Of a stretch of DNA of 64,000 nucleotides, positions 24,686-49,666 are shown in pieces. How positions within the stretch are numbered: position 1 is the stretch's first letter; each line of letters begins with the position of its first letter. The translations under genes and the position numbers were made by a program. The DNA is from Sphingomonas carotinifaciens (GTDB taxonomy: Bacteria; Pseudomonadota; Alphaproteobacteria; Sphingomonadales; Sphingomonadaceae), in NCBI RefSeq assembly GCF_009789535.1, contig NZ_WSUT01000001.1, positions 124,001 to 188,000 on the forward strand, written 5' to 3'. The notes under the pieces were generated by a model, which was not told the origin of the DNA, did no database searches, and was given only the letters and a program-made list of their open reading frames with translations.

Positions 24686-25741
24686 TCATCCGATCATATT
24701 GCCGTAGCCGATCACGATCGTGGCAAGGATCAGCAGCGCGACCCCGCCCCAGACCATAAAACGGGTGCGGGGCGCGGCATCCTTCCACTCCTTCAGCGCG
24801 AAGCCCCATAGCGTACCGAAGATGATGATCGAGGCCATGTGGAGCGTCCAGCTCGAGAAGCCATACTGCCCCATCTGGCTTTCGCCCATGGTGTAGAAGA
24901 AGAACTGGAAATACCATGTGGTGCCGGCGAGCGCGCAAAGGGCGAAGTTTAGTGCGATCGGCGCGCCTTTCGCCTCGCCCAGCCCCAGCCATTGACCCGC
25001 GCTGCGATTACGACGAATCAGGTGGATGCACCATACCGCATTAGTCAGCAGCCCGCCGAACATGACGAGGCACAGTACGGGAAGCCCGGTCCAGAGCGGC
25101 CCAGTGCCCGCCGCCGCCGATAGCGCCTTTATCGGTTCGCCGGCGGCAAGGCCGAAGGCAAAGCAGGCGGACATGATGCCTGCGAAGATTGCGACAACGA
25201 TACCCTTCCTGAAATCGAATTCCGTGACCGCGGCGACTTTCTGTTCGGGCGAGAGCGCCTGATCCTTTTTTGCCCCCGCAAGCGCCACAACGACGATGCC
25301 GGCGATGGTAAGACCAAGGCCGAGCAGGATGATGTTGCCCGAAGTGGTATCGAGCAGCTTGGCGGCGAACTCGCCGGTGAACAGCGGCGGGATTAGCGTG
25401 CCGAACACCGTGCACAGCCCCAACACCACGGCCATGCCGAGTGACAGCCCAAGGTATCGCATGACGAGGCCGTAGCCCAAGCCACCAAAACCCCAAAGAA
25501 TGCCAAAAAAGATCGGCCAAAGCAGCGTCGGCATCGGCATCGCGGCGAACACGCTTATTAGGTCGTTGGTTTGCAGCAAGGCAAAGAACCACGGCGCCAG
25601 CACCCACGAAAAGATGCCGCCGGTCAGCCAGTAAATTTCCCAAGACCAGCGTTTCACCCCGCGATAGGGGACATAAAAGCTGGCGGAGGCGAAACCGCCA
25701 AGCCAGTGATAAAGGACGCCGGTTAGGGGATTAGGGGTCAT
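24686..25741 (-). CDS. rhaT: L-rhamnose/proton symporter RhaT
   Basis: 351 residues with about ten hydrophobic segments. Characteristic stretches include WLGGFASASFYVPYRGVKRW, GGIFSWVLAPWFFA, GLGYGLVMRYLGLSLGMAVV, AVWCIHLI, YFQFFFYTMGESQMGQYGFS and the C-terminal IIFGTLWGFALKEWKD, all matching RhaT. It imports L-rhamnose across the inner membrane with a proton. It is the last gene of the minus-strand operon starting at 27696, 18 bases beyond the dioxygenase. No rhamnose catabolic enzymes are in the window, so these must lie elsewhere. Its presence beside a rhamnosidase gene supports a rhamnoside substrate for the cluster. Confidence 0.93.
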   Translation of the reverse strand: MTPNPLTGVLYHWLGGFASASFYVPYRGVKRWSWEIYWLTGGIFSWVLAPWFFALLQTNDLISVFAAMPMPTLLWPIFFGILWGFGGLGYGLVMRYLGLSLGMAVVLGLCTVFGTLIPPLFTGEFAAKLLDTTSGNIILLGLGLTIAGIVVVALAGAKKDQALSPEQKVAAVTEFDFRKGIVVAIFAGIMSACFAFGLAAGEPIKALSAAAGTGPLWTGLPVLCLVMFGGLLTNAVWCIHLIRRNRSAGQWLGLGEAKGAPIALNFALCALAGTTWYFQFFFYTMGESQMGQYGFSSWTLHMASIIIFGTLWGFALKEWKDAAPRTRFMVWGGVALLILATIVIGYGNMIG

Positions 25742-25759
25742 GGCAAAGGACCAGGCTGT

Positions 25760-26785
25760 TCAGGAGAAGCGCGCGGGATTAGTGCGTGAGGACGCCGCGG
25801 CGTCCATCGTCACGTCGAGACCGGCGGCTGGCGACAACGATCCGCCGAACGCGTCAACATGGGCGAAGCCGTCGGTGATTGTGTCGGCGCTGTCCCAGAA
25901 CGTGCCGCCATTGCCGCCCGAACTGGTCGCCAGCCAGCGCGCCGTCCCGCCGACGATGCGCGTCGCATAGGCGGTGCCCGCCGGCAGATTGACCGCATCG
26001 CCGCCGGTGACGATGTGCGCCTCGCCATCGATCGTCACCTCCAGCGTACCGTCGAGGAGGTAGAGGAACAGGTGCGTCGTCGCATGCCGGATCGTCGGCA
26101 GCGTGGCGCCGCGCCCGCCCTCGATCACCCGCATATCGAACAGGTCGTTGCTTTCCGCGCTCCCCAACAGCCGAGTTGAGAGATGCCCGTGCAGCCGATG
26201 CCGCGCGCCGTAGCCCGCATCGAGGAAATAGGATCGGTGATCGTCCGGTAGTGCCCGGTCCGCGTCACCCATCGGCGCGGCATTGGCATAAGTGGGCGCT
26301 TCGACGCGCATGATGCGATGCTTGCCCATCGCCGGCCCCATGCGGGAGAAGTCGAACGGCCGCCCGTCCTCGGGCAGACCGGTCATGCCCCAGACTTCAC
26401 CGGCGTCGACGAAGAATTCCTCCCATCCACCCGGAGCGACGATGCCGAAGAAGCGGGTGCGCGGCGCGACGCTGCGATAGCTATGGGTGTCGCCAGGGCG
26501 GACATAGGCAAAGTCGCCCGGCGTCAGCACCCGCGACGTGTCGCCGCACCACACCTGCAACCGGCCACGCGTGCAATACCAGGTATCGTGTTCGCGTTCG
26601 TGCCAATGCATAGGGATCGGCCCGCGATCGAGTGGCGCGTCACATATCACCGCGCCGAACCCGCCCGCCGTTTCCTCCACCCCGGCCAGCGTGCGGATGA
26701 CTTGCCCGGCGACCAGATGAGCGGGGCCGGTTCCGTCGCGCAGGACATAGGGTGTGTTGCCGGGCAAGCGGGGGGCATCGGTCAT
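25760..26785 (-). CDS. Quercetin 2,3-dioxygenase-like bicupin
   Basis: 341 residues from ATG 26785 (AGGAGAG upstream). Two cupin domains. The N-terminal one has MHWHEREHDTWYCTRG (His60, His62, position 67) and PGDTHSYRSV (His101). The metal set is thus His60, His62 and His101; the residue where quercetinases carry Glu is Asp67. The C-terminal cupin (about 220-320: RHATTHLFLYLLDGTLEVTI, GGDAVNLPAGTAYATRI) lacks the HxH metal motif. Quercetinases open the C ring of flavonols with release of CO to give a depside. The fit to a bicupin dioxygenase is strong; flavonol as substrate is inferred from family and neighbours (rhamnosidase, RhaT, protocatechuate genes). Confidence 0.78.
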   Translation of the reverse strand: MTDAPRLPGNTPYVLRDGTGPAHLVAGQVIRTLAGVEETAGGFGAVICDAPLDRGPIPMHWHEREHDTWYCTRGRLQVWCGDTSRVLTPGDFAYVRPGDTHSYRSVAPRTRFFGIVAPGGWEEFFVDAGEVWGMTGLPEDGRPFDFSRMGPAMGKHRIMRVEAPTYANAAPMGDADRALPDDHRSYFLDAGYGARHRLHGHLSTRLLGSAESNDLFDMRVIEGGRGATLPTIRHATTHLFLYLLDGTLEVTIDGEAHIVTGGDAVNLPAGTAYATRIVGGTARWLATSSGGNGGTFWDSADTITDGFAHVDAFGGSLSPAAGLDVTMDAAASSRTNPARFS

Positions 26786-26802
26786 CGAACTCTCCTGTGC
26801 GA

Positions 26803-27696
26803 TTATCGGACGAACGGGATGGCGAGCTGTGCCGCCTTGCATTCCGCCGTCTTGGGCGGGGCGATGCCCCAGTGATCGGTGCGTCCGGGGGGCCAGGTCC
26901 AGTCGTCGGGCGTGCCGACGCGGTAGCTGTCGTCGACCTGCAGCACCTCTGCGGTATATTCGATGACAAAGCCCGCTGGATCGACAAAATAGGTAAAGAC
27001 ATTGTCGCCCGGTCCGTGCCGGCCGGGGCCCCATCCGATCGGGAAACGGTGATCGACCATGCGGCCGGCGGCACGCATCACGCCTTCCCATGTTGGTAGC
27101 TGAAAGGCGACGTGATTGAGCGTGTTGACCGGTGCGTCGGCGATCACCACCGAATGATGGTCGTCATTGGTCCGCACGAACGCCATCATCCTCGACCGGT
27201 CGGTCAGCGCGAAGCCCAGCGCATCGACGAAGAAGGCAGTGTCACGCGCCACATCGTCACTGTTGATGTTGATGTGCGCCAGACGTTCGGGCCGATCGGC
27301 GGCGGGGGCGAGCGGCGCGACCACATCGTCATGCTGCACCAGACGCATCGTCCGGTCGCAACCGTCGGCAATGATCGCCATCGTCCCGCCGCCATGATCG
27401 TCGGCAGGCGCGAACGGGCGGATCAGCCGCGCACCGGCCGCCAGCGCCCGGGCAAGTAGCGCGTCGCGGTCGGCGGCCGGATCGATCCGCAAGGTCATCG
27501 ACCGGATCGCGGAAGCGGTACCGGCATGGAGCGCCACGACATGCGGATCGTCGCCGGTTGCACGCAGCCATGCCGAAGCGGCGCTGCGGTCGGCCAGCGT
27601 CAGGCCCCAGATTCGGGTATGGAAATCGACCGCCGCATCAAGGTCGGCAACGACGAGGTCGACGCTGCGCAACGCGGTCACCGGGAAACGGGCCAT
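26803..27696 (-). CDS. Extradiol ring-cleavage dioxygenase of the VOC superfamily
   Basis: 297 residues from the second of two adjacent ATGs (27696; the first is at 27699), behind GGAGAGGA. Two VOC modules: residues about 8-120 (SVDLVVADLDAAVDFHTRIW) and about 138-260. The catalytic module has His141 (LAHININ), His195 (LNHVAFQ) and Glu246 (FVIEYT), the 2-His-1-carboxylate iron set of type I extradiol dioxygenases, plus GRHGPGDNVFTYFVDPAG. Such enzymes cleave catechol-like rings with O2. Its likely substrate is a hydroxylated A ring or phloroglucinol-derived ring made by the FAD hydroxylase encoded divergently. It is the first gene of the operon with the quercetinase and rhaT. Confidence 0.83.
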   Translation of the reverse strand: MARFPVTALRSVDLVVADLDAAVDFHTRIWGLTLADRSAASAWLRATGDDPHVVALHAGTASAIRSMTLRIDPAADRDALLARALAAGARLIRPFAPADDHGGGTMAIIADGCDRTMRLVQHDDVVAPLAPAADRPERLAHININSDDVARDTAFFVDALGFALTDRSRMMAFVRTNDDHHSVVIADAPVNTLNHVAFQLPTWEGVMRAAGRMVDHRFPIGWGPGRHGPGDNVFTYFVDPAGFVIEYTAEVLQVDDSYRVGTPDDWTWPPGRTDHWGIAPPKTAECKAAQLAIPFVR

Positions 27697-27757
27697 CATT
27701 CCTCTCCGACGCCGCGTCGTCGCGGTCAAACATCCTTTATTGCACCCGAGTTTCAGA

Positions 27758-27766
27758 TGTAAAATA
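27758..27766 (-). promoter_or_regulatory. Candidate LysR half-site, left
   Basis: TGTAAAATA lies 62 bases upstream of the dioxygenase start. The same 9-mer occurs on the opposite strand at 28721-28729, ahead of the hydroxylase operon. Two promoters flanking one lysR gene with the same AT-rich word suggest a shared binding site. Confidence 0.35.
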
Positions 27767-27774
27767 ATAGATAA

Positions 27775-27788
27775 CTAGACATGTATAG
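27775..27788. promoter_or_regulatory. Imperfect palindrome upstream of lysR
   Basis: CTAGACATGTATAG reads nearly the same on both strands (12 of 14 bases) and sits 10 bases before the LysR gene start. It may be an autoregulatory site in the divergent promoter. Confidence 0.35.
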
Positions 27789-27797
27789 GAATGGTCT

Positions 27798-28691
27798 ATG
27801 ATTGATCCACGCCTGCTTCGAACGTTTCTCGCGGTCTGTCGCGAAGGATCGATCAGCGGTGCGGCGCGCCGGCTGAACATTTCGCAGCCGTCGGTGTCCG
27901 TGGCGATCGGCCAACTCGAACATGCGCTGGGCGGCAGCCTGTTCGATCGCGGACGGCGCGGCATCGTGCTGACCGCCGCCGGCATTGCCCTGTTCGAGCG
28001 GTCGGAACGCATGGATGCGCTGCTGTGCGAAGCCGAGGAGGCGGTGAAGCTGGCGCGGCGGGGCGTGGCCGGGCCGTTGCGAATCGGCGGCACGCCTGGC
28101 GCGCTGGTCAGCCTGGTACCGGCAGCGCTGGGGCGGATGGAGCAGGGCGGCCATGTCGCAGTGCAAGTGCTCGAAGGATCGGACGCGCACCTTGCCGACC
28201 TGTTGCGACGCGGCGAGATCGAAGTGGCGGTGGTAACAACCGGAATCGAACCGCCGCCCGAGGATATCGTCGAACGCAGCATCGCGCGCGATCCATTCGC
28301 CCTGATCGTCGGGCGCGCACATGATACGCTGGGACCGAGCGTCGCGCTGCACGAGATCGCCGGGATGCCATGGGTATTGCCCCATGCCGGCGGCGCTTTC
28401 CGCCGCCAGATTGAGGCGCTGTTCCTGTCGGCCGAGGTGCCGTTGCCGTTGAACGTCATTCGGTGCGATTCGCTGCTGACATCCAAGGAGATCGTTCGGC
28501 GCAGCCAGCGGGTTACGGTGCTGCCGCGCGGGGTAGTCGCGGCCGAACTGTCGATGGGATTGTTGCGCGCACTCCCCATCGAAGGCGCTGCGATCACGCG
28601 CAATATCGGCATCCGCATGCTGGCCGAGCGGTCGCTGTCCGACATCGGCAGGGTGTTTGTCGAAGCGATACTGAAAGCGACCGAAGCATAG
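27798..28691 (+). CDS. LysR-family regulator of the flavonoid/aromatic cluster
   Basis: 297 residues. Winged helix at about 1-62 (IDPRLLRTFLAVCREGSISG, AARRLNISQPSVSVAIGQLE, RGRRGIVLTAAG) and a substrate-binding domain (GPLRIGGTPGALVSLVPAAL, LADLLRRGEIEVAVVTTGIE). The N-terminal type with LLRTFLAV is common among activators of aromatic catabolism. It sits between the minus-strand dioxygenase operon and the plus-strand hydroxylase operon, and candidate operators lie on both sides, so it probably controls both. The effector is likely a pathway intermediate. Confidence 0.9.
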   Translation: MIDPRLLRTFLAVCREGSISGAARRLNISQPSVSVAIGQLEHALGGSLFDRGRRGIVLTAAGIALFERSERMDALLCEAEEAVKLARRGVAGPLRIGGTPGALVSLVPAALGRMEQGGHVAVQVLEGSDAHLADLLRRGEIEVAVVTTGIEPPPEDIVERSIARDPFALIVGRAHDTLGPSVALHEIAGMPWVLPHAGGAFRRQIEALFLSAEVPLPLNVIRCDSLLTSKEIVRRSQRVTVLPRGVVAAELSMGLLRALPIEGAAITRNIGIRMLAERSLSDIGRVFVEAILKATEA

Positions 28692-28716
28692 ATGTTTCCT
28701 ATGGCAATCGCAAAAT

Positions 28717-28736: not shown

Positions 28737-28841
28737 TGATCGCCCGGAATAAGGACCCGACCGCCAAAACAGGCGGCGTGAGAGGACCTGACCGATGGCG
28801 TGCCAACCCCGCCCATGCCCTGATTGCGCGACGTTGCCGCG

Positions 28842-30398
28842 ATGAGCAGCGTGTCGTACGACATCGGGATAATCGGATGCGGTCCGGTTGGCGCGCTTGC
28901 CGCCAACCTCGCCGCCGCGGCGGGCCTGAGCGTGTTGGTGATCGACCGGGCCGAGGGACCCCATCCGCTGCCGCGCGCGGTCCATCTGGACCATGAGATG
29001 ATGCGGTTGTTCCAGTCGGTCGGGCTGGACACGGTGCTGGCACCAGCGATGCGTGAGACCGAGGGGCATCTGCATATAGGTGCCGATCACGGCGTGATCC
29101 GGTACATGGGTACGGCGGGGCGGCCCAAGCCGTTCGGATGGGCCAACGACTATTTTTTCTACCAACCCGAACTCGAGGCGCTGCTGCGCGACGGGCTGAC
29201 CCGGTTCGACGCAGTGACGCTATGTGCCGCGACCGAACTGACCGGGTTTGAACAGGATGGTGCGGGCGTCACGCTGCACCTCGACCGTGACGGCGTGACC
29301 GACACTGCCCGGGTCCGCTGGGTCATTGCCTGCGATGGCGCGCGCAGCATGGTGCGCAAGACGCTGGGCATCGCGCTTGACGATCTGCATTTCGAGGAAC
29401 CCTGGCTGGTGGTCGATGCCGAGGTCGCGGCACCGGTGCGCTTTCCGGCGCTGACCGGTGTGCCGGCGGGGGCGGATCTGCAACAGCTGTCTGTGATGAT
29501 GTGCGATCCGGCGCGTCCGGCGACGATCGTGCCGGGGCGCGGCGACATACGTCGCTGGGAATTCATGCTGCTGCCGGGTGAGGACGAGGCGACGATGACC
29601 CGGCCGGAGGTCGTCGCCGATCTCCTCTCCCCTTATCTCGACGGGGTGCCACACCGGTTGTTGCGGGCCGCGACCTATCAGTTTCACGGCCTGATCGCCG
29701 AACGGTGGCGCGACGGCCGCGTGTTCCTGGCCGGTGATGCCGCCCACCAGACCCCGCCCTTTTTCGGGCAGGGCATGTGCCACGGAATGCGCGACGTCGC
29801 CAATTTGGTGTGGAAGCTGGCGCTGGTGATCGGCGGACGGGCTGAGCCGGACCTGCTGGACAGCTATCAGGTCGAACGCGATCCGCATGTCCGCGCCGTC
29901 GTGACGGCGGCGGTGGAGGCTGGGCGCTATATTTGCGAACTCGATCCCACCCGCGCCGCCGAGCGCGATGCGGCGATGCGCGAACGGGCGCGCAGCGGTC
30001 AGACCGGGACCGCTGCCGACCTGATTCCGGCCTATCGCGCCGGGGTGGTGGCGAACGACACGGCGGGGGCGGGCGAACGCTTCGTCCAACCGCGGCTCGG
30101 CGACGGAGAACTTCTCGACAGCGCGACCGGATCGGGGTGGCGGCTGATCGCGATCGACCGCGCTGCGGCAGACGCTGCACGGTCGGCGGTCGCTGCCGCT
30201 GCGGTGTCGGTGACGTTGGTCGATGCCACGACGATCGGCGATGACGGCACGCTTCGCCACTGGTTGCAGGCGCGTGGGAGCCGGTTCGTGCTGATCCGCC
30301 CCGACGCCTATGTCTTCGGCACGGCCGATGCCGAGCCTGCCGCGTTGCTGGAACGGCTCCACCGCGCGCTGCACCTGTGCCCGGCGGTGGCGGCATGA
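28842..30398 (+). CDS. FAD-dependent aromatic hydroxylase (MhpA/PheA-type group A monooxygenase)
   Basis: 518 residues from ATG 28842; a TTG at 28824 is in frame but lacks support. FAD motif GIIGCGPVGALAANLAAAAG at about 8-27, DG motif VIACDGARSMVRKTLGI at about 165-180, and FAD-ribityl motif [20 protein letters not shown] at about 298-317. A C-terminal thioredoxin-like region without catalytic Cys ends the protein, as in 3-(3-hydroxyphenyl)propionate hydroxylases. It would hydroxylate a phenolic ring with NAD(P)H and O2, creating a substrate for the extradiol dioxygenase at 26803. In flavanone catabolism of Herbaspirillum a FAD monooxygenase plays this part on the A ring. It overlaps the next gene by ATGA. 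Confidence 0.88.
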   Translation: MSSVSYDIGIIGCGPVGALAANLAAAAGLSVLVIDRAEGPHPLPRAVHLDHEMMRLFQSVGLDTVLAPAMRETEGHLHIGADHGVIRYMGTAGRPKPFGWANDYFFYQPELEALLRDGLTRFDAVTLCAATELTGFEQDGAGVTLHLDRDGVTDTARVRWVIACDGARSMVRKTLGIALDDLHFEEPWLVVDAEVAAPVRFPALTGVPAGADLQQLSVMMCDPARPATIVPGRGDIRRWEFMLLPGEDEATMTRPEVVADLLSPYLDGVPHRLLRAATYQFHGLIAERWRDGRVFLAGDAAHQTPPFFGQGMCHGMRDVANLVWKLALVIGGRAEPDLLDSYQVERDPHVRAVVTAAVEAGRYICELDPTRAAERDAAMRERARSGQTGTAADLIPAYRAGVVANDTAGAGERFVQPRLGDGELLDSATGSGWRLIAIDRAAADAARSAVAAAAVSVTLVDATTIGDDGTLRHWLQARGSRFVLIRPDAYVFGTADAEPAALLERLHRALHLCPAVAA

Positions 30399-30802
30399 TG
30401 CCGCTCGCCGCCGCGCGGGCCGCTCTGGACGCGACGCTTGCCGCCGCCCGGGCCGCGCCGATCGCCGCCATCGTCCTCGACGCCGGTGGCCATCCGGTCG
30501 CCTTTGCCCGGCAGGACGGTGCCAGCCTGTTCCGGCACGACATCGCCCGTGCCAAGGCGCTGGGCGCGATCGGCATGGGGCAGGACAGCGCCGAGATCGC
30601 CGATCGCGCCGCGCGCAACCCGGCCTTTTTCACCAGCGTCGCGGTGGCGACCGGCGGCGCGCTGGCGCTGTCGGCGGGCGGCGTGCTGATACGGAGTGCG
30701 GGCGGTCAAATCCTGGGTGCGATCGGCGTCAGCGGCGATACCCCTGACATCGATGCGACCTGCGCCCAAGCGGGCGTCGCCGCTTTTCACGGAGATCGAT
30801 AA
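30395..30802 (+). CDS. GlcG/HbpS-family protein (DUF336)
   Basis: 135 residues from ATG 30395, overlapping the hydroxylase stop. The whole protein is one domain: AARAALDATLAAARAAPIAA, IVLDAGGHPVAFARQDGASL, AFFTSVAVATGGALALSAGG and a C-terminal GAIGVSGDTPDIDATCAQAG. These are hallmarks of the GlcG/HbpS fold, found as accessory proteins in catabolic operons and as a haem-binding sensor in Streptomyces. The catalytic role, if any, is unknown. Its tight coupling to the hydroxylase and hydrolase suggests a step in ring-cleavage product handling. Confidence 0.82.
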   Translation: MMPLAAARAALDATLAAARAAPIAAIVLDAGGHPVAFARQDGASLFRHDIARAKALGAIGMGQDSAEIADRAARNPAFFTSVAVATGGALALSAGGVLIRSAGGQILGAIGVSGDTPDIDATCAQAGVAAFHGDR

Positions 30803-31647
30803 TGGCATTCGTCAGCTTCCGCCGCGCGGACGGCACCACCGGCTATGGCCGGCTTCATGGCGACCGGATCGCGGATTGCAGCGCGGTGCCGGGGGCGCCC
30901 GCGACGTTGAAAGGCGCGATCACGGCCGGTGCGCTCGATATGATCGAGGACGGTCCGGTCCTTGCGGCATGCGACGTTCTATTGCTGCCGGTTATTCCCG
31001 ACCCGGGCAAGATCCTGTGCGTTGGGCATAATTATGAAAGCCACCGGCAGGAGACCGGCCGGGCTAAGGTCGATCATCCGTCGATCTTCCTGCGCTTCGC
31101 CGACACGCTGATCGCCGATCGGCAGCCGATCCTGCGGCCGCGCGTGTCGACCAACCTCGATTTCGAGGGCGAACTGGCGGTGGTGATCGGACGTGGCGGG
31201 CGGGCAATCGCCGAGGATGAGGCGATGGCGCATGTCGCGGGCTATGCCTGTTTCAATGACGCATCCGTGCGCGACTGGCAATGGCATACGACCCAGTTCG
31301 CGCCGGGCAAGAATTTCCCTGGCACCGGCGCGTTCGGTCCGAAGCTGGTGACGCCGGCGGAGGCAGGCGACCTGAGTGACGTGCACGTCGTCACCCGGCT
31401 AAACGACGTGGTCGTGCAGGATCAGCCGATCCGCGACATGATTTTCCCGATCGCGCGGATCATCGCCTATGTTTCGACCTTCACGGCCCTGTCACCTGGT
31501 GATGTTATCGCCACGGGCACCCCGGGCGGGGTCGGCGCGAAACGAACCCCGCCGCTGTGGATGAAATCCGGGGACCGGGTCGAGGTGTCGATCGGACCGG
31601 TGGGTACGCTGACGAACCATGTCGTGGACGAGGCCGACGCCGCCTGA
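30802..31647 (+). CDS. Fumarylacetoacetate hydrolase family protein
   Basis: 281 residues; start overlaps the previous stop (TAATG). The catalytic FAH domain spans about 70-280: ILCVGHNYESHRQETGR, PSIFLRFADTLI, metal-binding LDFEGELAVVIG, AGYACFNDASVRDWQWHTTQ, GKNFPGTGAFGPKLVTP, and SPGDVIATGTPGGVGAKRTP. These enzymes hydrolyse C-C bonds of acyl-pyruvates or isomerise and decarboxylate ring-cleavage products. Here it would act after the extradiol dioxygenase. Its exact substrate cannot be read from sequence. Confidence 0.9.
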   Translation: MAFVSFRRADGTTGYGRLHGDRIADCSAVPGAPATLKGAITAGALDMIEDGPVLAACDVLLLPVIPDPGKILCVGHNYESHRQETGRAKVDHPSIFLRFADTLIADRQPILRPRVSTNLDFEGELAVVIGRGGRAIAEDEAMAHVAGYACFNDASVRDWQWHTTQFAPGKNFPGTGAFGPKLVTPAEAGDLSDVHVVTRLNDVVVQDQPIRDMIFPIARIIAYVSTFTALSPGDVIATGTPGGVGAKRTPPLWMKSGDRVEVSIGPVGTLTNHVVDEADAA

Positions 31648-31692: not shown

Positions 31693-34065
31693 ATGAAGAA
31701 GATGCTGGTTGCAGCGTTCGGGACCGTCAGCGCGCTGTCATTGGCCACCCCCGCCTCTGCCCAGGCGGGTGCCACCGCCGATCCGGCGGCGCAGAACGAC
31801 CCGGCCGCCACGGCGCCGGGCGTGGTCGATAATGGCGAGATCATTGTCACCGCCACCCGCCGTGCCGAACGGCTGCAGGACGTGCCGCTGGCGGTTAACG
31901 CATTGACCGGCGAACAGCTGGCGCAGAGCGGCTTTCAGAACCTGCAGGACATCCAGTATCAAATCCCGGGCGTCCAGTTCGGCAGTTCGCCCAATGACTC
32001 CGGCTTCCGTCTGCGCGGCGTCGGCTCGGCGGGCGGCTTCAGCAGCTCGTCGGAACAGAACGTCGGCACGGTCGTCGACAATGTTGTCATCCCGTTCGGC
32101 AATCCGATGCAGAGCTTGGGCGATCTTGAACGGGTCGAGGCGCTCAAAGGACCGCAGGGCACGCAGTTCGGCAAGAATGCGTCGTCAGGCGTGGTCAACA
32201 TCACCACACGGAAGCCGGAGCTGGGCCGGTTCGGCGGCAGCGCCTTTGCCAGCTATGGCGAGCTGAACGACTACAACTTCAACGCATCGCTCAATGTGCC
32301 GGTCGGGCAGACCGCGGCGCTGGCCGTCTATGGTTTCGCGCGCGGCAATGACGGGTTTGTCGAGAATGTCGTCAACAACCAGGATTGGGGCGCGACCGAT
32401 GTGTGGGGAACGCGCGCCAAGCTGCTGTGGAAGCCCAGCGATACGTTCAGCGCCTATCTCATCGGTGACTATGCCAAGGGCACGCAGGTTGGGCCAGGCG
32501 CGCTGTGGACGTTCAACCGCTTCCCGACCGGCAATGCGCTGGCCGCCGCGCGCAACGCGACGGTCACCGCGCTCGGCATCACGCCCGGTTTCCGCAACGA
32601 CAAGTCGGCGGAAAATACCGCGACGACGATGCGCGACGAGAATTACGGCGGATCGCTCGAACTCAACCTGGCGGTTGGCGACTATAACCTGACCTCGATC
32701 AGCGCGTATCGCGTTTATGATACCGGGCAGATCACCTTCGGCATCGATTCCTATCCGCTGCCGATCTTCACCGGCAACAACAACACCGCCGCCGCCGGCG
32801 ATGGCGACCGTACCTTCGTGTCGCAGGAGTTTCGTGTAACGTCGCCGACCGGCGCGCCGGTCGAATATGTCGCCGGCATCTACCTGTCGCGGCTCAAGAC
32901 GGGCCTCGATGGCTATAACAGCGCGCAGCTGCGTCCCGCATTGCCGTTTTCGGCGCAGCCGCAGCTGTCGATCACCTCGGGCCGATCGACCACCCGTACC
33001 CAGACCGACAGCGCGGCACTGTTCGTCGACGGGTCGGTCCGGGTGACCGACCAGTTCAAGATCCTGGCCGGTGGCCGCTACAATTACGATTGGGTCGATG
33101 CGCAGAGCTTCTCGGTCGCCGATCCCGATTATCCATCGGGCACGGTCGGCGCGAACGGGTTTACCGTCCCCTATACCCCGCGCCCGCTGTCGACCGGATC
33201 GACCAAGCGTGGCGACTGGTCAGGCCGGATCGGATTCGAGGTAAAGCCGGCGCGCGACATCATGTTCTATGGCACGGTCGCGCGTGGCTATCTAGGGCCG
33301 ACGGTCACCTTCTCGGGGCTGACCGGGGCACAGGTCACTGTCGATCCGCAAACAGTGGTCGACATCACCCTGGGTGCCAAGACGCAGCTGTTCGATCGCA
33401 AGCTGACGCTGAACGGCAATATCTTTTATGACCGGTACAAGGATCTGCAGACCTCGGTCTTCAACGGGCTGGAGTTCCTGACCGAAAATGCCGGCGGGTT
33501 CGAGGCGGCGGGGTTCGAGGTGGAGGCGACGTGGCGCTTCAACCGTAACCTGTCGATCAACGCGGCCTATACTTATTCGGATACCTATTTCACCGATTAT
33601 GTCACCGCATGCCCGGACTCGACCGTTGCCGCAGGGGCAGCAGCAGTGGCGGCACAGTGCAACGCACCGGGATCGACCGCGACGACGCCACTGTTCCAGG
33701 CGCGCGGCGAACCGCTGTCGGGAGCGCCCAAGCACAGCGTCACCGCCGGCGTCAATTACGAACAGCCGATTACCAACCGCCTGACCCTCGATGCGTCGGC
33801 CAGCTATTATTACCGCAGCGAGACGCAATATGATCCCGGCGAACTCTATGCACGGCAGCCGGGCTACGACCTGGTCGGGCTGAACATCGGGATCGGCGCT
33901 CCCGATGGCGCATGGCGCGTCGGCGCATTCGCCCGCAACCTGTTCGACACCCGCTTCCACGCCGCGGTCATCGGCCTGCCGTTCACGACCGGGGCAGGCG
34001 CGGTGAACTGGAACACGCGCGATGGGCGACGTACCATCGGTGGTCAGGTGGCGATCCGGTTCTGA
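31693..34065 (+). CDS. TonB-dependent receptor, probable flavonoid/aromatic glycoside uptake
   Basis: 790 residues from ATG 31693 (AGGAGAGG upstream; GTG 31690 also in frame). Signal peptide at about 1-24 (ending ASAQ), TonB box region GEIIVTATRRAERLQDVPLA, plug VNALTGEQLAQSGFQNLQD and LERVEALKGPQGTQFGKNAS, and a barrel ending RRTIGGQVAIRF with terminal Phe. The VTATRR-ERLQDVP start places it with the large receptor group found next to aromatic and xenobiotic catabolic genes in sphingomonads. In this operon it probably imports the glycoside or the aglycone through the outer membrane. Confidence 0.9.
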   Translation: MKKMLVAAFGTVSALSLATPASAQAGATADPAAQNDPAATAPGVVDNGEIIVTATRRAERLQDVPLAVNALTGEQLAQSGFQNLQDIQYQIPGVQFGSSPNDSGFRLRGVGSAGGFSSSSEQNVGTVVDNVVIPFGNPMQSLGDLERVEALKGPQGTQFGKNASSGVVNITTRKPELGRFGGSAFASYGELNDYNFNASLNVPVGQTAALAVYGFARGNDGFVENVVNNQDWGATDVWGTRAKLLWKPSDTFSAYLIGDYAKGTQVGPGALWTFNRFPTGNALAAARNATVTALGITPGFRNDKSAENTATTMRDENYGGSLELNLAVGDYNLTSISAYRVYDTGQITFGIDSYPLPIFTGNNNTAAAGDGDRTFVSQEFRVTSPTGAPVEYVAGIYLSRLKTGLDGYNSAQLRPALPFSAQPQLSITSGRSTTRTQTDSAALFVDGSVRVTDQFKILAGGRYNYDWVDAQSFSVADPDYPSGTVGANGFTVPYTPRPLSTGSTKRGDWSGRIGFEVKPARDIMFYGTVARGYLGPTVTFSGLTGAQVTVDPQTVVDITLGAKTQLFDRKLTLNGNIFYDRYKDLQTSVFNGLEFLTENAGGFEAAGFEVEATWRFNRNLSINAAYTYSDTYFTDYVTACPDSTVAAGAAAVAAQCNAPGSTATTPLFQARGEPLSGAPKHSVTAGVNYEQPITNRLTLDASASYYYRSETQYDPGELYARQPGYDLVGLNIGIGAPDGAWRVGAFARNLFDTRFHAAVIGLPFTTGAGAVNWNTRDGRRTIGGQVAIRF

Positions 34066-40084: not shown

Positions 40085-40210
40085 ATGCAGATGAACGACA
40101 GGTCGAACCGTCGCGCCGCCATCCTGGCCGACGTGCGGTGCACCGCGATGGCACTGACCGCGCTTACGGCGTTCGTCGGTTCGTTCTGGATGGCGGGGCT
40201 GTTGTTCTGA
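40085..40210 (+). CDS. 41-residue single-span membrane protein
   Basis: ATG 40085 is preceded by a strong site (GAGAGGGGAGAGGACC). The product begins MQMNDRSNRRAAILADVRCT and ends with one hydrophobic segment AMALTALTAFVGSFWMAGLL. It lies between the four-helix protein and the hydrolase with short gaps. No family is recognised. The ribosome site, position and clear membrane segment support a real small gene. Confidence 0.55.
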   Translation: MQMNDRSNRRAAILADVRCTAMALTALTAFVGSFWMAGLLF

Positions 40211-40233
40211 GGCCGCTTGTCGGAGACGGGCGG

Positions 40234-42146: not shown

Positions 42147-42154
42147 CGCCTTAG

Positions 42155-44159
<2,005 letters not shown>

Positions 44160-44163
<4 letters not shown>

Positions 44164-44792
44164 TGGGCTGGACCCGCGACGAAATGGCGGTGCGTGCCGC
44201 GCAGGAATTGCAGGACGGTTTCTACGTCAATCTGGGCATCGGCATCCCGACGCTGGTCGCCAACCATGTACCCGACGGTATCGAGGTAACGTTGCAATCG
44301 GAAAACGGGATGCTGGGCATCGGCCCGTTCCCCTATGAGGGCGAAGCCGACCCTGACCTCATCAACGCGGGCAAGCAGACGATCACCGCGCTGCCGACAT
44401 CCAGCTTCTTTTCCAGCGCCGACAGTTTCGCGATGATCCGGGGTGGCCATATCGACATGGCGATCCTTGGCGCGATGGAGGTGAGCCAGGCCGGCGACCT
44501 CGCCAACTGGACGATTCCGGGCAAGATGGTGAAGGGCATGGGCGGGGCGATGGACCTCGTTGCCGGGGTCCGCCGCGTCGTCGTCGTGATGGACCATGTG
44601 TCGAAACATGGCGATCCCAAGATTCTGCCCGACTGCACGCTGCCGTTGACCGGTAAGGCCTGCGTCGACCTGATCATCACCGACCTTGCCGTCATCGCCT
44701 GCGACAAGCCGGGCCTGCGCCTGATCGAATGCGCACCGGGCGTGTCGGTCGAGGAGGTGCGGGCCAAGACCGGCACGGAGGTCGCCGCATGA
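44160..44792 (+). CDS. pcaJ: 3-oxoadipate CoA-transferase subunit B
   Basis: 210 residues. The catalytic Glu lies in [20 protein letters not shown] (about 42-60). [38 protein letters not shown] and [20 protein letters not shown] are typical of the beta subunit. Two adjacent ATGs at 44160 and 44163; the first overlaps the pcaI stop. It completes the enzyme with the preceding gene. Confidence 0.93.
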
Positions 44793-45490
44793 GCTATCAT
44801 CGCGAAGACGCCGGCGCGCCGCCATCGCTGTTCCCCGACTACGGGGCGACCCGCACCCGCGCACCGCTGCATCCACCGCTCCGTGTGCCGCAGACGCGAA
44901 CCGAGACGACCGGGCCTGCCGGCTGGGACCGGTTGATGGGATCGGCACTGGCCGATCTGACCACACAGCATGCCGCCATGCCGCAGGGGCAGCGGATCAT
45001 CGTCACCGGGCGTGTGCTCGACGAGGATGGCCGTGCGGTGCCCGATACGGTCCTGGAAATCTGGCAGGCCAACGCCGCCGGTCGCTATATCCATGGCAAG
45101 GACCAGTGGGACGCGCCGCACGACCCGAACTTCACCGGAGCTGGGCGGGTCGTCACCGATGCGGAGGGACGCTATCGCTTCGTCACCATCCGGCCGGGGG
45201 CGTATCCATGGGGCAACCACCGCAATGCGTGGCGGCCGGCGCATATCCATCTGTCGCTGCTTGGCCCCGCCTTCGCGACGCGGCTGGTGACGCAGCTTTA
45301 TTTCCCCGACGACCCGCTGATCGAGATTGACCCGATCGCGAACGCGGTGCCGATGCCGTATCGCCAGCGGCTGGTCGCGCGGTTCGACATGGATGTGACC
45401 GAGCCGAACTGGGCGCTCGGCTATCGCTTCGATGTGGTGCTCAAAGGCCGCGAGCAGACGCCGTTCGAGGAGGACGACCATGACCATTGA
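44789..45490 (+). CDS. pcaH: Protocatechuate 3,4-dioxygenase beta subunit
   Basis: 233 residues. The intradiol dioxygenase core contains [40 protein letters not shown] and [20 protein letters not shown]. The four iron ligands of the beta subunit are visible as Tyr in GRYIHG, Tyr in GAYPWG and the two His of AHIH. It opens protocatechuate between the hydroxyls to 3-carboxy-cis,cis-muconate. It overlaps pcaJ by 4 and pcaG by 11 bases. Confidence 0.96.
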
Positions 45491-46139
45491 CGTCGCCGAC
45501 CGTCGCCCCGGCCCTCGGCAGGACAATCAGGATCCGGCATTGTTCGGCCAGACGCCCAGCCAGACGGTTGGCCCCTTCTTCCACTATGGCCTTCCTTGGA
45601 AGGGGGGCGCGGATCTTGTCGGGCAATCGGACATGGGCGCGCGGCCCGAATTGTTTCCCGAGGCGCATTATGTGCTGAACCTGTCCGCCCCCACCGGAAC
45701 TCCACAAGGGCGGGTGATCGAGATCGTCGGTCGCGTGCTCGATGGCGACGGGACCCCGGTTCCCGATGCGATGCTTGAAATCTGGCAGGCGGACGTTGCC
45801 GGCCGCTATCATGGCGAAACGGGCAGCGACCCGCATTTCGTGGGCTTTGGCCGGGCCGCGACTGCCGAGGATGGCGGCTATCGGTTCCGCACCATCCTGC
45901 CGGGATCGATCGGAACGGACCATGCGCCGCATATCGCGGTGTCGATCTTCGCGCGCGGCGTCATCAAGCGGCTGGCGACGCGGCTGTATTTTGCCGGTCT
46001 GGAGGCAGGTGACGCGACGCTGTCACGGGTTCCTGCGGAACGGCGGGCAACGTTGGTCGCGACCGCCGCGAGAGACGACATCTGGTCGCTCGATTTCGTG
46101 TTGCAGGGCGAGCGCGAAACGGTGTTCTTCGACCTGTGA
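45480..46139 (+). CDS. pcaG: Protocatechuate 3,4-dioxygenase alpha subunit
   Basis: 219 residues from ATG 45480 inside the end of pcaH. FGQTPSQTVGPFFHYGLPWK, GRVLDGDGTPVPDAMLEIWQ and FRTILPGSIGTDHAPHIAVS are the alpha-subunit signatures; the second His and Tyr iron ligands of the beta subunit are not all kept, as expected. It forms the heteromeric dioxygenase with PcaH. Confidence 0.95.
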   Translation: MTIDVADRRPGPRQDNQDPALFGQTPSQTVGPFFHYGLPWKGGADLVGQSDMGARPELFPEAHYVLNLSAPTGTPQGRVIEIVGRVLDGDGTPVPDAMLEIWQADVAGRYHGETGSDPHFVGFGRAATAEDGGYRFRTILPGSIGTDHAPHIAVSIFARGVIKRLATRLYFAGLEAGDATLSRVPAERRATLVATAARDDIWSLDFVLQGERETVFFDL

Positions 46140-47281
46140 GCGACCTGCTGCGCCTGCGCCCCGTCGCGACGGCGGACATGATCGCGGTGTTCGACGATGC
46201 CGCGACGATCGCCCACGCCTGCGCCTTCGAAATCGCACTGGCCCGCGCGCAGGCGGCGCACGGCGTCCTCGCGCCGGAGCTGGCGGAGGCGATCGTCGCG
46301 GGCGTCGATCCGGCACGGATCGATACGGCCGAACTGGCGGAGGCGGCGGCGCTGGCCGGTACGCTCGCCATTCCGCTGGTCGCGCGGCTGCGGGCTATGG
46401 TGGTGGATGGGGAGGCGGCAAAGGCGCTGCATCGTGGCGCCACCAGTCAGGACGTTGCCGATACCGTGCTGATGCGACAGGTCCGTGCCGCGCATCGGCT
46501 GTTGGCAGACGATGGCCGCCGAGTGCGCGATGGGCTGGCGGCACTGGCCCGGGGCCATGCCGAACGCCCGGCGATCGGGCGGACGCTGTTGCAGAATGCG
46601 ATGCCGGTGGCGTTCGGACTGCGGCTGGCGCAGGCGGCACGCGGGATCGACGATGCTCTGGTGATGCTGGACGTCGCGGTCGAACGCCATGCGGGCTTGC
46701 AACTGGGTGGCGCCGCCGGAACCCGTGCCGATCTGGATGGCAGGGGGGCGGTCGTCGCGGTGCATATGGCCAAGGCGCTCGGACTGGGTCCGACCGCGCC
46801 GTGGCACGCGCGGCGGACTGGCGTGGCGGCGATCGGCGCCGCGGTCGGCCTGTTGATCGGCGCGCTCGGCAAGGTGGCGCGCGACGTGGCATTGCTGGCG
46901 CAGAATGGCATTGGTGAAGTGCGCGAACCGCAGGTCGCCGGACGCGGCGGATCGTCGGCGATGGCGCACAAGCGCAACCCGACCGGTTGCCAGGTCGCCC
47001 TATCGGCGGCGACGCGCGCGCCGGGGCTGGTCGCGTCGCTGCTGGGCGGCATGGCGCAGGAACAGGAGCGGGGGCTGGGCGGCTGGCAGGCCGAGGGGCC
47101 GGTGCTGGCCGATCTGTTCCTGCTCGCATCGGGCAGCGCCGCCGCGCTGGCGGTGGTGGCCGAGGGGCTGGAGATCGACACCGCCGCCATCGCCCGCAAC
47201 CTCGGCGCTGCGGCAGTCGGCGACGATATCGGCGAAAGCGCGGCGATCATTGCCGAATTGCTGGGCGGGATGGGGGAGTGA
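46136..47281 (+). CDS. pcaB: 3-carboxy-cis,cis-muconate cycloisomerase
   Basis: 381 residues from GTG 46136, overlapping the pcaG stop. Fumarase/aspartase superfamily: HRGATSQDVADTVLMRQVR (about 100), GAAGTRADLDGRG, and the signature GGSSAMAHKRNPTGCQVAL (about 278-296). It lactonises 3-carboxymuconate to 4-carboxymuconolactone. It is shorter than the roughly 450-residue Pseudomonas enzyme; the C-terminal extension seems reduced. Neighbouring pca genes exclude adenylosuccinate lyase. Confidence 0.92.
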   Translation: MSDLLRLRPVATADMIAVFDDAATIAHACAFEIALARAQAAHGVLAPELAEAIVAGVDPARIDTAELAEAAALAGTLAIPLVARLRAMVVDGEAAKALHRGATSQDVADTVLMRQVRAAHRLLADDGRRVRDGLAALARGHAERPAIGRTLLQNAMPVAFGLRLAQAARGIDDALVMLDVAVERHAGLQLGGAAGTRADLDGRGAVVAVHMAKALGLGPTAPWHARRTGVAAIGAAVGLLIGALGKVARDVALLAQNGIGEVREPQVAGRGGSSAMAHKRNPTGCQVALSAATRAPGLVASLLGGMAQEQERGLGGWQAEGPVLADLFLLASGSAAALAVVAEGLEIDTAAIARNLGAAAVGDDIGESAAIIAELLGGMGE

Positions 47282-47285
47282 CGCC

Positions 47286-48464
47286 ATGGCCATGACGATG
47301 CGCGACGGCATACGGCTGCACTGGCGGCTGGAGGGGGCGGCCGATCGTCCGGTGCTGGTCCTGCTCAATTCGATCGGCACCGACATGTCGCTGTGGGACC
47401 GCACGGTTCCGCTGCTCCTTTCCGCCTTCCGACTGCTCAGGATCGATACGCGCGGAGCGGGCGGGTCGGATGCGCCGGAGGGTGACTACAGCCTGTCAAT
47501 GCTGGCCGACGATGTCGTCGCGATCCTGGACGATGTCGGCGTTGAACGGGCGGCGGTGGCGGGCGTGTCGCTGGGCGGCATGGTCGCGATGCAATTGGCG
47601 CTCGACCATCCGGCGCGGGTGTCGGCACTGGCGCTGATCTGCACGTCGGCCACCATGGACCCGGCGGCGTGGCAGAGCCGGATCGACACCGTGCGCGCGC
47701 AGGGCACCGCCGCCATCGCCGACATGGCAGTCGGACGTTTCCTTTCCCCGGGCTTTGTGAAGCACCACCCGGAGGTCGCGGCGAGCCTGCGCGACGGCAT
47801 CGTGCGACAGGCCGATGCCGGCTATGCCGGGGCGGGGGCGGCGATCCGCGACATGGCTCTGGCCCATCGGATCGCGACCATCACCCAGCCGACGCTGGTG
47901 GTGACCGCGACACTCGACATTTCGACCCCCTATGCCGGACATGGCGAGCATCTGCTATCCATTGCCGGCGCACGGCACGTCGGCGTCGATGGCGCGCATC
48001 TGCCGCCGATCGAGGCGCCGGGCGCGTTGGCGGCGGCGCTGCGCACCTTCCTGTGCGGCGACGCTGCGGCGAATACGGCCGCCGACACACTGTTCGAAGC
48101 GGGACTTCGCAATCGCCGCCGGGTGCTGGGCGATGCGTGGGTCGATACCAGCCTGGCCAAGCGAACCCCGTTCACTGCCGATTTTCAGGCGATGATAACG
48201 CGCATTGCCTGGGCAGAGATCTGGGGCCGGCCCGGCCTTGACGACCGGACCCGTCGTCTGCTCGTCCTCGCCATCACCTGCGCGCTCGGGCGATGGGAGG
48301 AATTCGCACTGCACGTCCGTGCCGGGCTTCGCGAAGGCGGGTTCACCACCGATGAACTGAAGGAAGTGTTGATGCAGACCGCCATCTACGCGGGGGTACC
48401 GGCCGCGAATACCGGCTTCGCCGAAGCGCAGAAGATCATCGCCATGCTGGAACAGGACGCCTGA
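47286..48464 (+). CDS. pcaL: PcaL: fused 3-oxoadipate enol-lactonase and 4-carboxymuconolactone decarboxylase
   Basis: 392 residues from ATG 47286. Residues about 1-258 are an alpha/beta hydrolase: VLVLLNSIGTDMSLWDRTVP, RIDTRGAGGSDAPEGDYSLS, nucleophile Ser in VAGVSLGGMVAMQ, and catalytic His in GAHLPPIEAPG (PcaD). Residues about 265-392 are a carboxymuconolactone decarboxylase (PcaC): DFQAMITRIAWAEIWGRPGL, LVLAITCALGRWEEFALHVR, EVLMQTAIYAGVPAANTGFA. Such PcaL fusions are known in actinobacteria and some proteobacteria. The enzyme catalyses two successive steps, giving 3-oxoadipate. Confidence 0.95.
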   Translation: MAMTMRDGIRLHWRLEGAADRPVLVLLNSIGTDMSLWDRTVPLLLSAFRLLRIDTRGAGGSDAPEGDYSLSMLADDVVAILDDVGVERAAVAGVSLGGMVAMQLALDHPARVSALALICTSATMDPAAWQSRIDTVRAQGTAAIADMAVGRFLSPGFVKHHPEVAASLRDGIVRQADAGYAGAGAAIRDMALAHRIATITQPTLVVTATLDISTPYAGHGEHLLSIAGARHVGVDGAHLPPIEAPGALAAALRTFLCGDAAANTAADTLFEAGLRNRRRVLGDAWVDTSLAKRTPFTADFQAMITRIAWAEIWGRPGLDDRTRRLLVLAITCALGRWEEFALHVRAGLREGGFTTDELKEVLMQTAIYAGVPAANTGFAEAQKIIAMLEQDA

Positions 48465-49666
48465 TGCCCGACGCCTATCTCTGCGACGCGATCCGCACGC
48501 CCATCGGACGGTTGAACGGTGCGCTGTCCACCGTCCGCGCCGACGACCTTGCCGCGATCCCGTTAAGTGCGTTGGTCCAGCGCAACCCCGGTGTCGATTG
48601 GGAAGCCGTCGACGACGTGCTGCTCGGCTGCGCCAATCAGGCGGGCGAGGACAATCGCAACGTCGCACGCATGGCGGTGCTGCTCGCCGGATTGCCGGAA
48701 GCGGTACCCGGCGGCACGATCAACCGGCTGTGCGGATCGGGCCTGAACGCGGTCGGCAGCGCCGCACAGGCGATCCGCAGCGGCGACGCGGCGTTGGTCA
48801 TTGCCGGCGGTGTCGAAAGCATGACCCGCGCGCCCTATGTGATGGGGAAGGCCACTGCCGCCTTCGACCGCGCCCAGCAGATCGAGGACACGACGCTCGG
48901 CTGGCGCTTCGTCAACCCGGCAATGCAAGCGGCGTACGGCGTCGACACCATGCCGCAGACGGCGGAGAATGTCGCCGATCAATGGCAGGTCAGCCGCGCG
49001 GATCAGGACGCGTTTGCGCTCGCCAGCCAGCAAAAGGCCGCTGCTGCCATCGCCAGTGGTCGCATGGCCGCCGAAATCGTGCCGGTCACCATTCCGCAGC
49101 GCAAGGGTGAGGCCGTCGTCTTCACGCAGGACGAACACCCACGCGCGACCAGCCTCGAGGCGCTGGCGAAACTCAAGCCCGTCGTCCGCGCAGATGGCAC
49201 GATCACGGCGGGCAATGCCTCAGGGCTCAACGACGGTGCCGCAGCAATGCTGATCGCGTCCGAGGCCGCGGCGGTATCCAATGGCCTTACCCCACGCGCT
49301 CGCATTGTCGGGCTAGCTTCGGCGGGCATCGCGCCACGCATCATGGGCGTCGGACCGATCGAAGCCGCACGCAAGCTATGCCGGATCACAGGTGTCACCC
49401 TCGACCAGCTCGACGTGATCGAACTCAACGAAGCCTTTGCCGCGCAGGCGATCGCAACGCTGCGTGACCTGGACATCGCCACCGACGACCCGCGCGTGAA
49501 CCGCAACGGCGGCGCCATTGCGCTTGGCCATCCGCTTGGCATGTCCGGCGCACGCATCGCGATGACGGCGGTCGAAGAATTGCACCTCACCGGCGGCCGG
49601 TATGCCATGGCGTTCATGTGCATAGGTGTCGGACAGGGTATCGCGCTAATGTTGGAGCGCTGCTGA
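48464..49666 (+). CDS. pcaF: 3-oxoadipyl-CoA thiolase
   Basis: 400 residues; start overlaps the pcaL stop (TGATG). Thiolase signatures: acyl-accepting Cys in GGTINRLCGSGLNAVGSAAQ (about 90), GGVESMTRAPYVMGKATAAF, LNEAFAAQAIATLRDL, His in NGGAIALGHPLGMSGARIAM and the second Cys in FMCIGVGQGIALMLE. PcaF cleaves 3-oxoadipyl-CoA to succinyl-CoA and acetyl-CoA, completing the path. It is the last gene of the pob-pca operon. No PcaK transporter or PcaQ/PcaR regulator gene adjoins it. Confidence 0.94.
   Translation: MPDAYLCDAIRTPIGRLNGALSTVRADDLAAIPLSALVQRNPGVDWEAVDDVLLGCANQAGEDNRNVARMAVLLAGLPEAVPGGTINRLCGSGLNAVGSAAQAIRSGDAALVIAGGVESMTRAPYVMGKATAAFDRAQQIEDTTLGWRFVNPAMQAAYGVDTMPQTAENVADQWQVSRADQDAFALASQQKAAAAIASGRMAAEIVPVTIPQRKGEAVVFTQDEHPRATSLEALAKLKPVVRADGTITAGNASGLNDGAAAMLIASEAAAVSNGLTPRARIVGLASAGIAPRIMGVGPIEAARKLCRITGVTLDQLDVIELNEAFAAQAIATLRDLDIATDDPRVNRNGGAIALGHPLGMSGARIAMTAVEELHLTGGRYAMAFMCIGVGQGIALMLERC

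Follow-up and report, generated by a model that had tools for sequence, protein, structure and literature searches.

The question raised by this locus is whether the genes between positions 24686 and 49666 of the window, the whole 64,000-nucleotide stretch of Sphingomonas carotinifaciens DNA that we analysed, serve the breakdown of one class of plant compound. Profile searches confirmed every family that an initial annotation had named there, from RhaT through PcaF, although its gene list omitted an HbpS-like and a nucleoside-hydrolase-like gene. We consider it very probable that the cluster serves flavonoid-glycoside catabolism in the broad sense.

Among the sugar-related genes, the GH106 alpha-L-rhamnosidase (36268..39597, + strand) matched PF17132 at full length and over cut-off (positions 2-743 of 743, 1035 bits) and scored 1310 bits against 6q2f, the GH106 enzyme of Novosphingobium sp. 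PP1Y. The GH1 beta-glucosidase (34961..36271, +) reached 193 bits with PF00232 and 214 bits, below cut-off, with TIGR03356; by eye, both glycosidases carry an N-terminal signal. RhaT, an L-rhamnose/H+ symporter (24686..25741, −), scored 518 bits against NF010024 (cut-off 468). A TonB-dependent receptor (31693..34065, +; PF00593, PF07715) precedes an HGGG alpha/beta-hydrolase esterase (34095..34967, +, start near 34095; BD-FAE, Abhydrolase_3), in which no signal peptide was seen by eye and which is apparently cytoplasmic. Its closest solved structure is 4zrs, a feruloyl esterase, and we regard it as a candidate depside or phenolic-ester esterase. Past GH106 lie a small membrane-like protein without a Pfam family (39594..40058, +) and the nucleoside-hydrolase-like protein (40138..41256, +; PF01156, 48 bits). 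The latter shows a twin-arginine-like signal by eye, has its true start later than the ORF start and has a 34% homologue in L009/L023.

Further downstream, a full 3,4-cleavage path is encoded on the + strand, comprising PobA, 4-hydroxybenzoate 3-monooxygenase (42230..43456; TIGR02360, 650 bits, cut-off 539); the 3-oxoadipate CoA-transferase PcaI and PcaJ (43456..44792, over curated cut-offs); protocatechuate 3,4-dioxygenase PcaH and PcaG (44729..46139; TIGR02422 312 and TIGR02423 180 bits, both over cut-off); 3-carboxy-cis,cis-muconate cycloisomerase PcaB (46136..47281; clear but sub-threshold, 312 against 355.75); a PcaDC fusion (46905..48464, true start inside the ORF; NF051488, 432 bits, cut-off 390); and the 3-oxoadipyl-CoA thiolase PcaF (48464..49666; TIGR02430, 667 bits, over cut-off). 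An AraC regulator (41265..42146, −; HpaA-like, 126 bits, below cut-off) takes the place of PobR, and an AraC gene also lies beside pobA in S. montana (63%) and PP1Y (28%). A second pcaHG is found elsewhere in the genome (C7:194158-195466).

Comparison across Sphingomonadales genomes established the 24.7-41.3 kb part as a real conserved cluster. The search for the same gene set in other sphingomonads, which the initial annotation had proposed, returned a core common to all nine genomes examined. These eight genes (bicupin and extradiol dioxygenase; then LysR, FAD hydroxylase, FAH, TonB receptor, esterase and GH1) stood together in 10/10 loci from these genomes, all Sphingomonadales other than the window's own; one locus, L013, has an additional GH1 gene between TonB receptor and esterase. 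GH106 adjoins the core in eight of the nine, and the TonB receptor is a variable part, 68-74% or 27-29% identical in relatives. The rhaT and pob-pca genes are less conserved neighbours than the core and GH106. No rhaT match was found around the bicupin in L007-L016, and the eight flanks fetched past GH106 hold araC-pobA-pcaI once (S. montana) and rhaT twice (L064, L065). Among the stretches fetched for three glycosidase-bearing sister clusters, araC-pobA occurs in one (PP1Y) and rhaT in two (PP1Y and N. resinovorum; L057 and L058). If the route proposed below is right, the cluster would offer a testable gene signature for sphingomonads that feed on rutin-like compounds.

We then considered the properties of the bicupin (25760..26785, −), whose length we corrected from the 443 aa first given to about 341 aa, with a start near 26785. 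Quercetinases carry a 3-His-1-Glu metal/base set, and the Glu at this site is held to be the catalytic base. The window's protein shares the whole bicupin fold of B. subtilis YxaG and Aspergillus quercetin 2,3-dioxygenase, but differs from YxaG in its swapped cupin order and from bicupin quercetinases in having one intact metal set with Asp for Glu: the N-terminal cupin reads His-His-Asp-His, the three His being kept, and the C-terminal cupin has lost its metal/base set. The Asp recurs in 120/120 homologues among the matches listed and in 24/24 of those aligned, which would define a quercetinase-like subfamily carrying Asp where Glu is regarded as necessary. By its fold, the protein is a candidate C-ring opener with flavonol 2,4-dioxygenase chemistry.

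Adjoining the bicupin in all ten loci is a type I (VOC) extradiol dioxygenase (26803..27699, −; PF00903; TIGR03211, 102 bits, below cut-off), with 3b59 as its best PDB relative. A LysR regulator gene (27798..28691, +, by profile match) diverges from the bicupin operon and is followed by an MhpA-like FAD aromatic hydroxylase, FAD_binding_3 (28842..30398, +; PF01494; NF004829, 484 bits, cut-off 390), the HbpS/GlcG-like protein (30395..30802, +; PF03928, 93 bits) and an FAH-family hydrolase (30802..31647, +; PF01557, 217 bits), a candidate acylpyruvase for the ring-cleavage product. HbpS-like homologues recur in related modules of L007/L014, L008, L010, L011 (there outside the interval between hydroxylase and FAH), L017, L020, L022, L052-L054, L057 and L058. 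The FAH protein was ruled out as the rhamnose-pathway 2,4-didehydro-3-deoxy-L-rhamnonate hydrolase because it scores far below cut-off (155.7 bits against 500) and the genome's over-cut-off match (539.5 bits) lies elsewhere (C5:2201363-2202196).

Hydroxylase, extradiol dioxygenase and FAH form a separable module that occurs without the bicupin in other bacteria. Several bicupin-less modules adjoin TRAP/TTT organic-acid carriers, suggesting a small acid as the module's substrate, but in R. leguminosarum and R. brockwellii the module's neighbours are a beta-glucosidase and an ABC carrier for sugars instead. An ACMSD-type amidohydrolase lies near 8/9 bicupin-less modules; a search of the window's genome for this type, run without a positive control, gave no match. 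For the weaker VOC relatives L040-L042, the 4.4-18 kb fetched contained neither a hydroxylase nor an FAH match. In Alloyangia the same module is accompanied by a YxaG-order bicupin with the canonical Glu. Alloyangia and Falsirhodobacter branch within the Sphingomonadales carriers with weak support (76), so it is equally possible that Falsirhodobacter lost a bicupin or that Alloyangia gained one. The sister clusters keep a hydroxylase 61-65% identical to the window's beside a dioxygenase only 36-40% identical, a split not expected if the ring-cleavage substrate were shared. Esterase homologues (48-58% identical) are present in the sister clusters L052, L054, L057 and L058, which lack a bicupin, so the enzyme is not tied to the bicupin.

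The modular evidence favours a single route in which the trio handles the A-ring piece after C-ring opening. The initial annotation had set C-ring and A-ring cleavage against each other as alternative models; we keep both ring steps and merge them. The fate of the A-ring piece had gone unnamed in its C-ring model. Here we infer every substrate, the aglycone class and the order of steps. The glycoside would enter through the TonB receptor and lose rhamnose and glucose in the periplasm to GH106 and GH1, both of which bear a signal; RhaT would import the rhamnose for degradation by genes located elsewhere. The cytoplasmic steps would begin with the bicupin, opening the C ring at its one metal site by flavonol 2,4-dioxygenase chemistry, after which the feruloyl-esterase-like enzyme would split the depside. 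The acid from the B ring (4-hydroxybenzoate or protocatechuate) would enter PobA and the pca path. On the acid from ring A (2,4,6-trihydroxybenzoate, or phloroglucinol formed from it), the FAD enzyme would carry out a hydroxylation, the extradiol dioxygenase would cleave the ring and FAH would hydrolyse the product. The cluster contains no decarboxylase for the A-ring acid, and we identified no carrier that would take the aglycone across the inner membrane.

We give about an even chance to this whole route acting on flavonoid glycosides, most likely those of flavonols (rutin or kaempferol glycosides, for example). Sugar removal, uptake of rhamnose, opening of the rings and an exit via 4-hydroxybenzoate/protocatechuate, as first proposed, are backed by the sister locus of the rhamnosidase RHA-P and by rhamnose/pob linkage in some relatives, though not most. 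Counting against the whole route are the Asp for Glu in the bicupin homologues (120/120 among the matches listed), the esterase of bicupin-less sister clusters, the lack of an A-ring decarboxylase in the cluster and of an ACMSD-type match in the genome, the dioxygenase divergence in sister clusters, the sugar-side neighbours in R. leguminosarum and R. brockwellii, the weak placement of Alloyangia and Falsirhodobacter and the lack of an identified aglycone carrier. Should the merged route be true, one gene cluster performs C-ring and A-ring cleavage in series and supplies candidates for the genes that deal with the A-ring half once a quercetinase has acted. A bolder reading, which we put forward tentatively, is that the trio is an aerobic meta-cleavage pathway, so far undescribed, for ring A of flavonoids (2,4,6-trihydroxybenzoate/phloroglucinol), a portable module that may have acquired different openers on independent occasions: a quercetinase with swapped cupin order and Asp ligand in Sphingomonas and R. 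rhizoryzae, one of YxaG order in Alloyangia, and an amidohydrolase in Sphingobium and Novosphingobium. Combined with glycosidases and with pob/pca or lig genes, it would amount to a full island for the mineralisation of flavonol glycosides. Titles and abstract starts in the open-licence literature yielded no description of an aerobic trihydroxybenzoate/phloroglucinol gene set or of such a combined cluster.

The order of steps could also be the reverse, as in the ifc cluster of Variovorax (isoflavones) and the fde cluster of Herbaspirillum (naringenin): the FAD enzyme would hydroxylate C8 of the still intact aglycone, ring A would be cleaved by the extradiol dioxygenase, FAH would trim the product and the bicupin would act late on a pyranone-like remnant. 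As far as the available text goes, IfcA is an FAD monooxygenase, IfcB is a dioxygenase of the glyoxalase type and the cupins IfcD1/2 act on 2-hydroxy-5-(4-hydroxyphenyl)-4H-pyran-4-one (PMC11069340), and C8 is the position at which FdeE hydroxylates flavonols, quercetin among them (PMC11303751). The amidohydrolase-type sister clusters, which keep the hydroxylase as VOC and next enzyme differ, fit this order too. Against it stand the organic-acid carriers beside bicupin-less modules, the bicupin fold, which is closest to quercetinases, and the canonical-Glu partner in Alloyangia, and we think it unlikely. Slightly less probable still is that the substrate is another rhamnosylated or acylated plant phenolic (e.g. 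a dihydrochalcone, stilbenoid, phenylpropanoid ester or saponin) and the bicupin reaction a different one. The Asp, invariant among the matches listed, and the feruloyl-esterase-like esterase would suit it, and GH106 enzymes can act on saponins too, but RHA-P is reported to be active on flavonoid glycosides (both PMC10653915, from the part available) and the pobA linkage recurs in S. montana and PP1Y. Chance adjacency of an ordinary pob-pca operon to an unrelated cluster for glycosidases and aromatics, as the separate pcaH contigs of S. lacusdianchii and Sphingomonas sp. BT553, the 7/8 flanks beyond GH106 without pobA and the second pcaHG might suggest, is very improbable given that GH106 and araC-pobA-pcaI are direct neighbours in S. 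montana (L063), as are GH1 and the araC-pobA that follows it in PP1Y.

Finally, we compared the cluster with known systems; the literature yielded no experiment on this locus itself. By gene families only, it encodes FAD hydroxylase, VOC dioxygenase and cupin together, as ifc/fde-type clusters do. The ifc cluster of Variovorax sp. V35, which performs oxidative flavonoid catabolism, shares the FAD hydroxylase, glyoxalase-type extradiol dioxygenase and cupin, compared by gene family; unlike in our merged route its cupins act once ring A is lost, and the available text names no GH106, GH1, TonB receptor or FAH enzyme (PMC11069340). The fde cluster of H. seropedicae SmR1, compared by description, likewise has an FAD C8-hydroxylase (FdeE) and a dioxygenase (FdeC) and exits via protocatechuate, as in the window, but a quercetinase-type bicupin is not mentioned in the available text (PMC11303751, PMC11069340). 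The Discussion of the ifc paper describes bacterial oxidative flavonoid breakdown as either C-ring or A-ring cleaving (PMC11069340, in the part available). A further close likeness is the sister cluster on plasmid Mpl of Novosphingobium sp. PP1Y (L057), where rhaT, GH106, LysR, FAD hydroxylase, HbpS, VOC dioxygenase, FAH, TonB receptor, esterase, GH1, AraC and PobA share one stretch with rhamnose-catabolism-type genes and a LigB, the GH106, which is RHA-P, lying between the rhamnose-type genes and araC-pobA. The earlier statement that no described single cluster holds all the parts needs care, since this stretch holds nearly all of them; it differs from the window in an amidohydrolase that replaces the bicupin, a VOC enzyme only 36% identical, and LigB after pobA where the window has its pca genes.

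Family scans bore out every gene that the initial annotation had named in this region and added an HbpS-like gene (30395-30802) and a nucleoside-hydrolase-like gene (40138-41256). The genes fall into two units. In the first (24686-41256), two runs of genes diverge: rhaT, the bicupin and the VOC extradiol dioxygenase lie on the minus strand, and LysR, FAD hydroxylase, HbpS, FAH hydrolase, TonB receptor, esterase, GH1 and GH106 on the plus strand. GH106 is followed by a gene for a small membrane-like protein and then by the nucleoside-hydrolase-like one. The second (41265-49666) carries araC-pobA-pcaIJHGB-pcaDC-pcaF. The assignment of the cluster to flavonoid-glycoside catabolism is well supported. 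No role in flavonoid breakdown is evident for the nucleoside-hydrolase-like protein; a 34% identical homolog lies near GH106 in a distant locus (L023:17002-17937), and a short match follows GH106 in L060, a flank of a related cluster.

A compact IS5/IS4-like element (50933-51788) lies directly right of the pca operon, with transposase ORFs at 50950-51318 and 51333-51710 (DDE_Tnp_1 and DUF4096); inverted repeats of 20 bp, matching perfectly, bound it at 50933-50952 and 51769-51788. Directly left of rhaT is a transposase-like ORF (HTH_Tnp_1, weak HTH_21; 23065-23829), so the 24.7-49.7 kb region is flanked on both sides by insertion-sequence traces. A separate sugar-use locus (17474-22640) beside the cluster holds a GH36 alpha-galactosidase (17474-19846) and a large TonB receptor (19776-22640).

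Next, we looked at conservation. Few genomes carry the bicupin: at E 1e-10 a match occurs in 5 of the 298 genomes of the family, the 4.09 Mb genome studied here included, and four of these matches are near full length. A scan of the species-genome collection, which with a single-protein query reaches close relatives only, gave seven loci, all in Sphingomonas. The ten loci fetched around the bicupin represent nine genomes, because one S. montana contig is represented twice (L007 and L014). The initial annotation had proposed looking for its gene set in other sphingomonads, and a core of eight genes (bicupin, VOC dioxygenase, LysR, FAD hydroxylase, FAH, TonB receptor, esterase and GH1) kept the same arrangement in all ten loci; in one (L013) a further GH1 separates the receptor from the esterase, and the GH1 that runs off the end of L010 is whole in L060. 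By whole-genome positions, GH106 and the bicupin share a contig, 2 to 11.4 kb apart, in eight of the nine genomes, the exception being S. glacialis E6.1, with only a 37% match elsewhere. Sphingomonas lacusdianchii is the nearest named relative found (bicupin 87%, GH106 91% identical), and the variable part is the TonB receptor, which is 68-74% identical in some of the loci and 27-29% identical in others. For 36 of 72 bicupin protein clusters (contigs of at least 5 kb, among the best 120 of each protein listed) a VOC protein lies on a contig of equal size, and thus probably on the same one. Relatives of the bicupin (66%, P0063) and of the VOC dioxygenase (70%, P0168), both named for Gemmatimonadetes bacterium T265, are each listed with a 1397887-base contig, a pair that suggests spread far beyond Alphaproteobacteria.

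Linkage of rhaT and pobA to the cluster is less conserved than that of GH106. No rhaT was found around the bicupin in the ten loci. Among eight flanks fetched beyond GH106 (L060-L067), two (L064, L065) contain rhaT with FAH- and dehydrogenase-like genes; in one, the 3 kb flank of S. montana (L063), araC, pobA and pcaI directly adjoin GH106, an arrangement that matches the window and runs to the end of the contig; five have neither. The cluster and pcaH occupy separate contigs in both S. lacusdianchii and Sphingomonas sp. BT553. Each of the ten Sphingomonadales carrier genomes, including the one studied here, encodes one route, and only one, for cleaving the protocatechuate ring: four have PcaH (this genome, G678, G680 and G682) and six have LigA (G217, G045, G679, G681, G683 and G684). 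Among 99 control genomes of the family, 28 have LigA above 100 bits and five have PcaH over the cut-off, weaker PcaH-like matches being left out, with no overlap; after removal of three carriers, 30 of 96 have either, against 10 of 10 carriers (Fisher P = 2.7e-5, uncorrected for phylogeny). The genome studied here has a second PcaHG pair away from the window (contig C7, 194158-195466).

The hydroxylase, VOC dioxygenase and FAH hydrolase form a module that also occurs without the bicupin, in the stretches fetched from Rhizobium leguminosarum, R. brockwellii, R. binae, Agrobacterium larrymoorei, Falsirhodobacter, Massilia and three further genomes; the plasmids of the six named are absent from the 18 plasmids with any bicupin match. 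A decarboxylase-type amidohydrolase lies near eight of these nine modules and not near the ninth (L037); among solved structures, the R. leguminosarum enzyme finds its best relatives in ACMSD. The module has TRAP or TTT genes nearby in L020, L021, L051 and L056 and, among bicupin carriers, in L017 and L018; its neighbours in R. leguminosarum and R. brockwellii are instead a beta-glucosidase and a carrier of the sugar ABC type. The HbpS/GlcG-like gene recurs beside the hydroxylase-dioxygenase module in several lineages.

In a tree of 25 taxa built from the three module proteins, R. rhizoryzae, whose bicupin is order-swapped, nests within bicupin-less Rhizobiaceae (UFBoot 100), and Alloyangia, whose bicupin has the YxaG order and the canonical Glu, is sister to bicupin-less Falsirhodobacter (UFBoot 100). 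This pair is placed among Sphingomonadales carriers at a weak support of 76, so Falsirhodobacter may have lost its bicupin. Inspection of this tree indicates three or more changes in bicupin presence. Read most simply, the bicupin supplies the module's own substrate, which would be the A-ring acid if the bicupin makes a flavonol depside. The best single explanation, which we hold at about even odds, would be a merged route in which the bicupin opens the C ring, the esterase splits the depside, the B-ring acid enters the pob/pca path and the module degrades the A-ring acid. A route in which the hydroxylase acts first on the intact aglycone, as in the ifc and fde systems (PMC11069340, PMC11303751), is a less likely alternative.

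Finally, the FAD hydroxylase led to clusters on Sphingobium and Novosphingobium plasmids. RAC03 and N. aromaticivorans have the module together with the amidohydrolase of the three clusters described next, with no GH1 or GH106 within the stretch fetched. TomTYG65, Novosphingobium sp. PP1Y and N. resinovorum SA1 share with the window the chassis of LysR, hydroxylase (61-64%), HbpS, FAH, TonB receptor, esterase, GH1 and GH106. On one side of its GH106 locus PP1Y has rhaT together with genes for an FGGY kinase, an aldolase-dehydrogenase fusion and a protein resembling sugar isomerases, and on the other araC, pobA and a LigB; within the stretches fetched, SA1 has the rhamnose-type genes and no pobA, and TomTYG65 neither. 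The match of the PP1Y GH106 to PDB 6q2f, which we take to be RHA-P, spans residues 1-1146 of 1151, with identity throughout the alignment rows listed. RHA-P of PP1Y is tabulated as a characterised GH106 (PMC6828813), and the PP1Y enzyme reportedly has activity on flavonoid glycosides (PMC10653915). Unlike the window, these three clusters have a 411-residue amidohydrolase in the bicupin's place and a VOC enzyme only 36-39% identical to that of the window.
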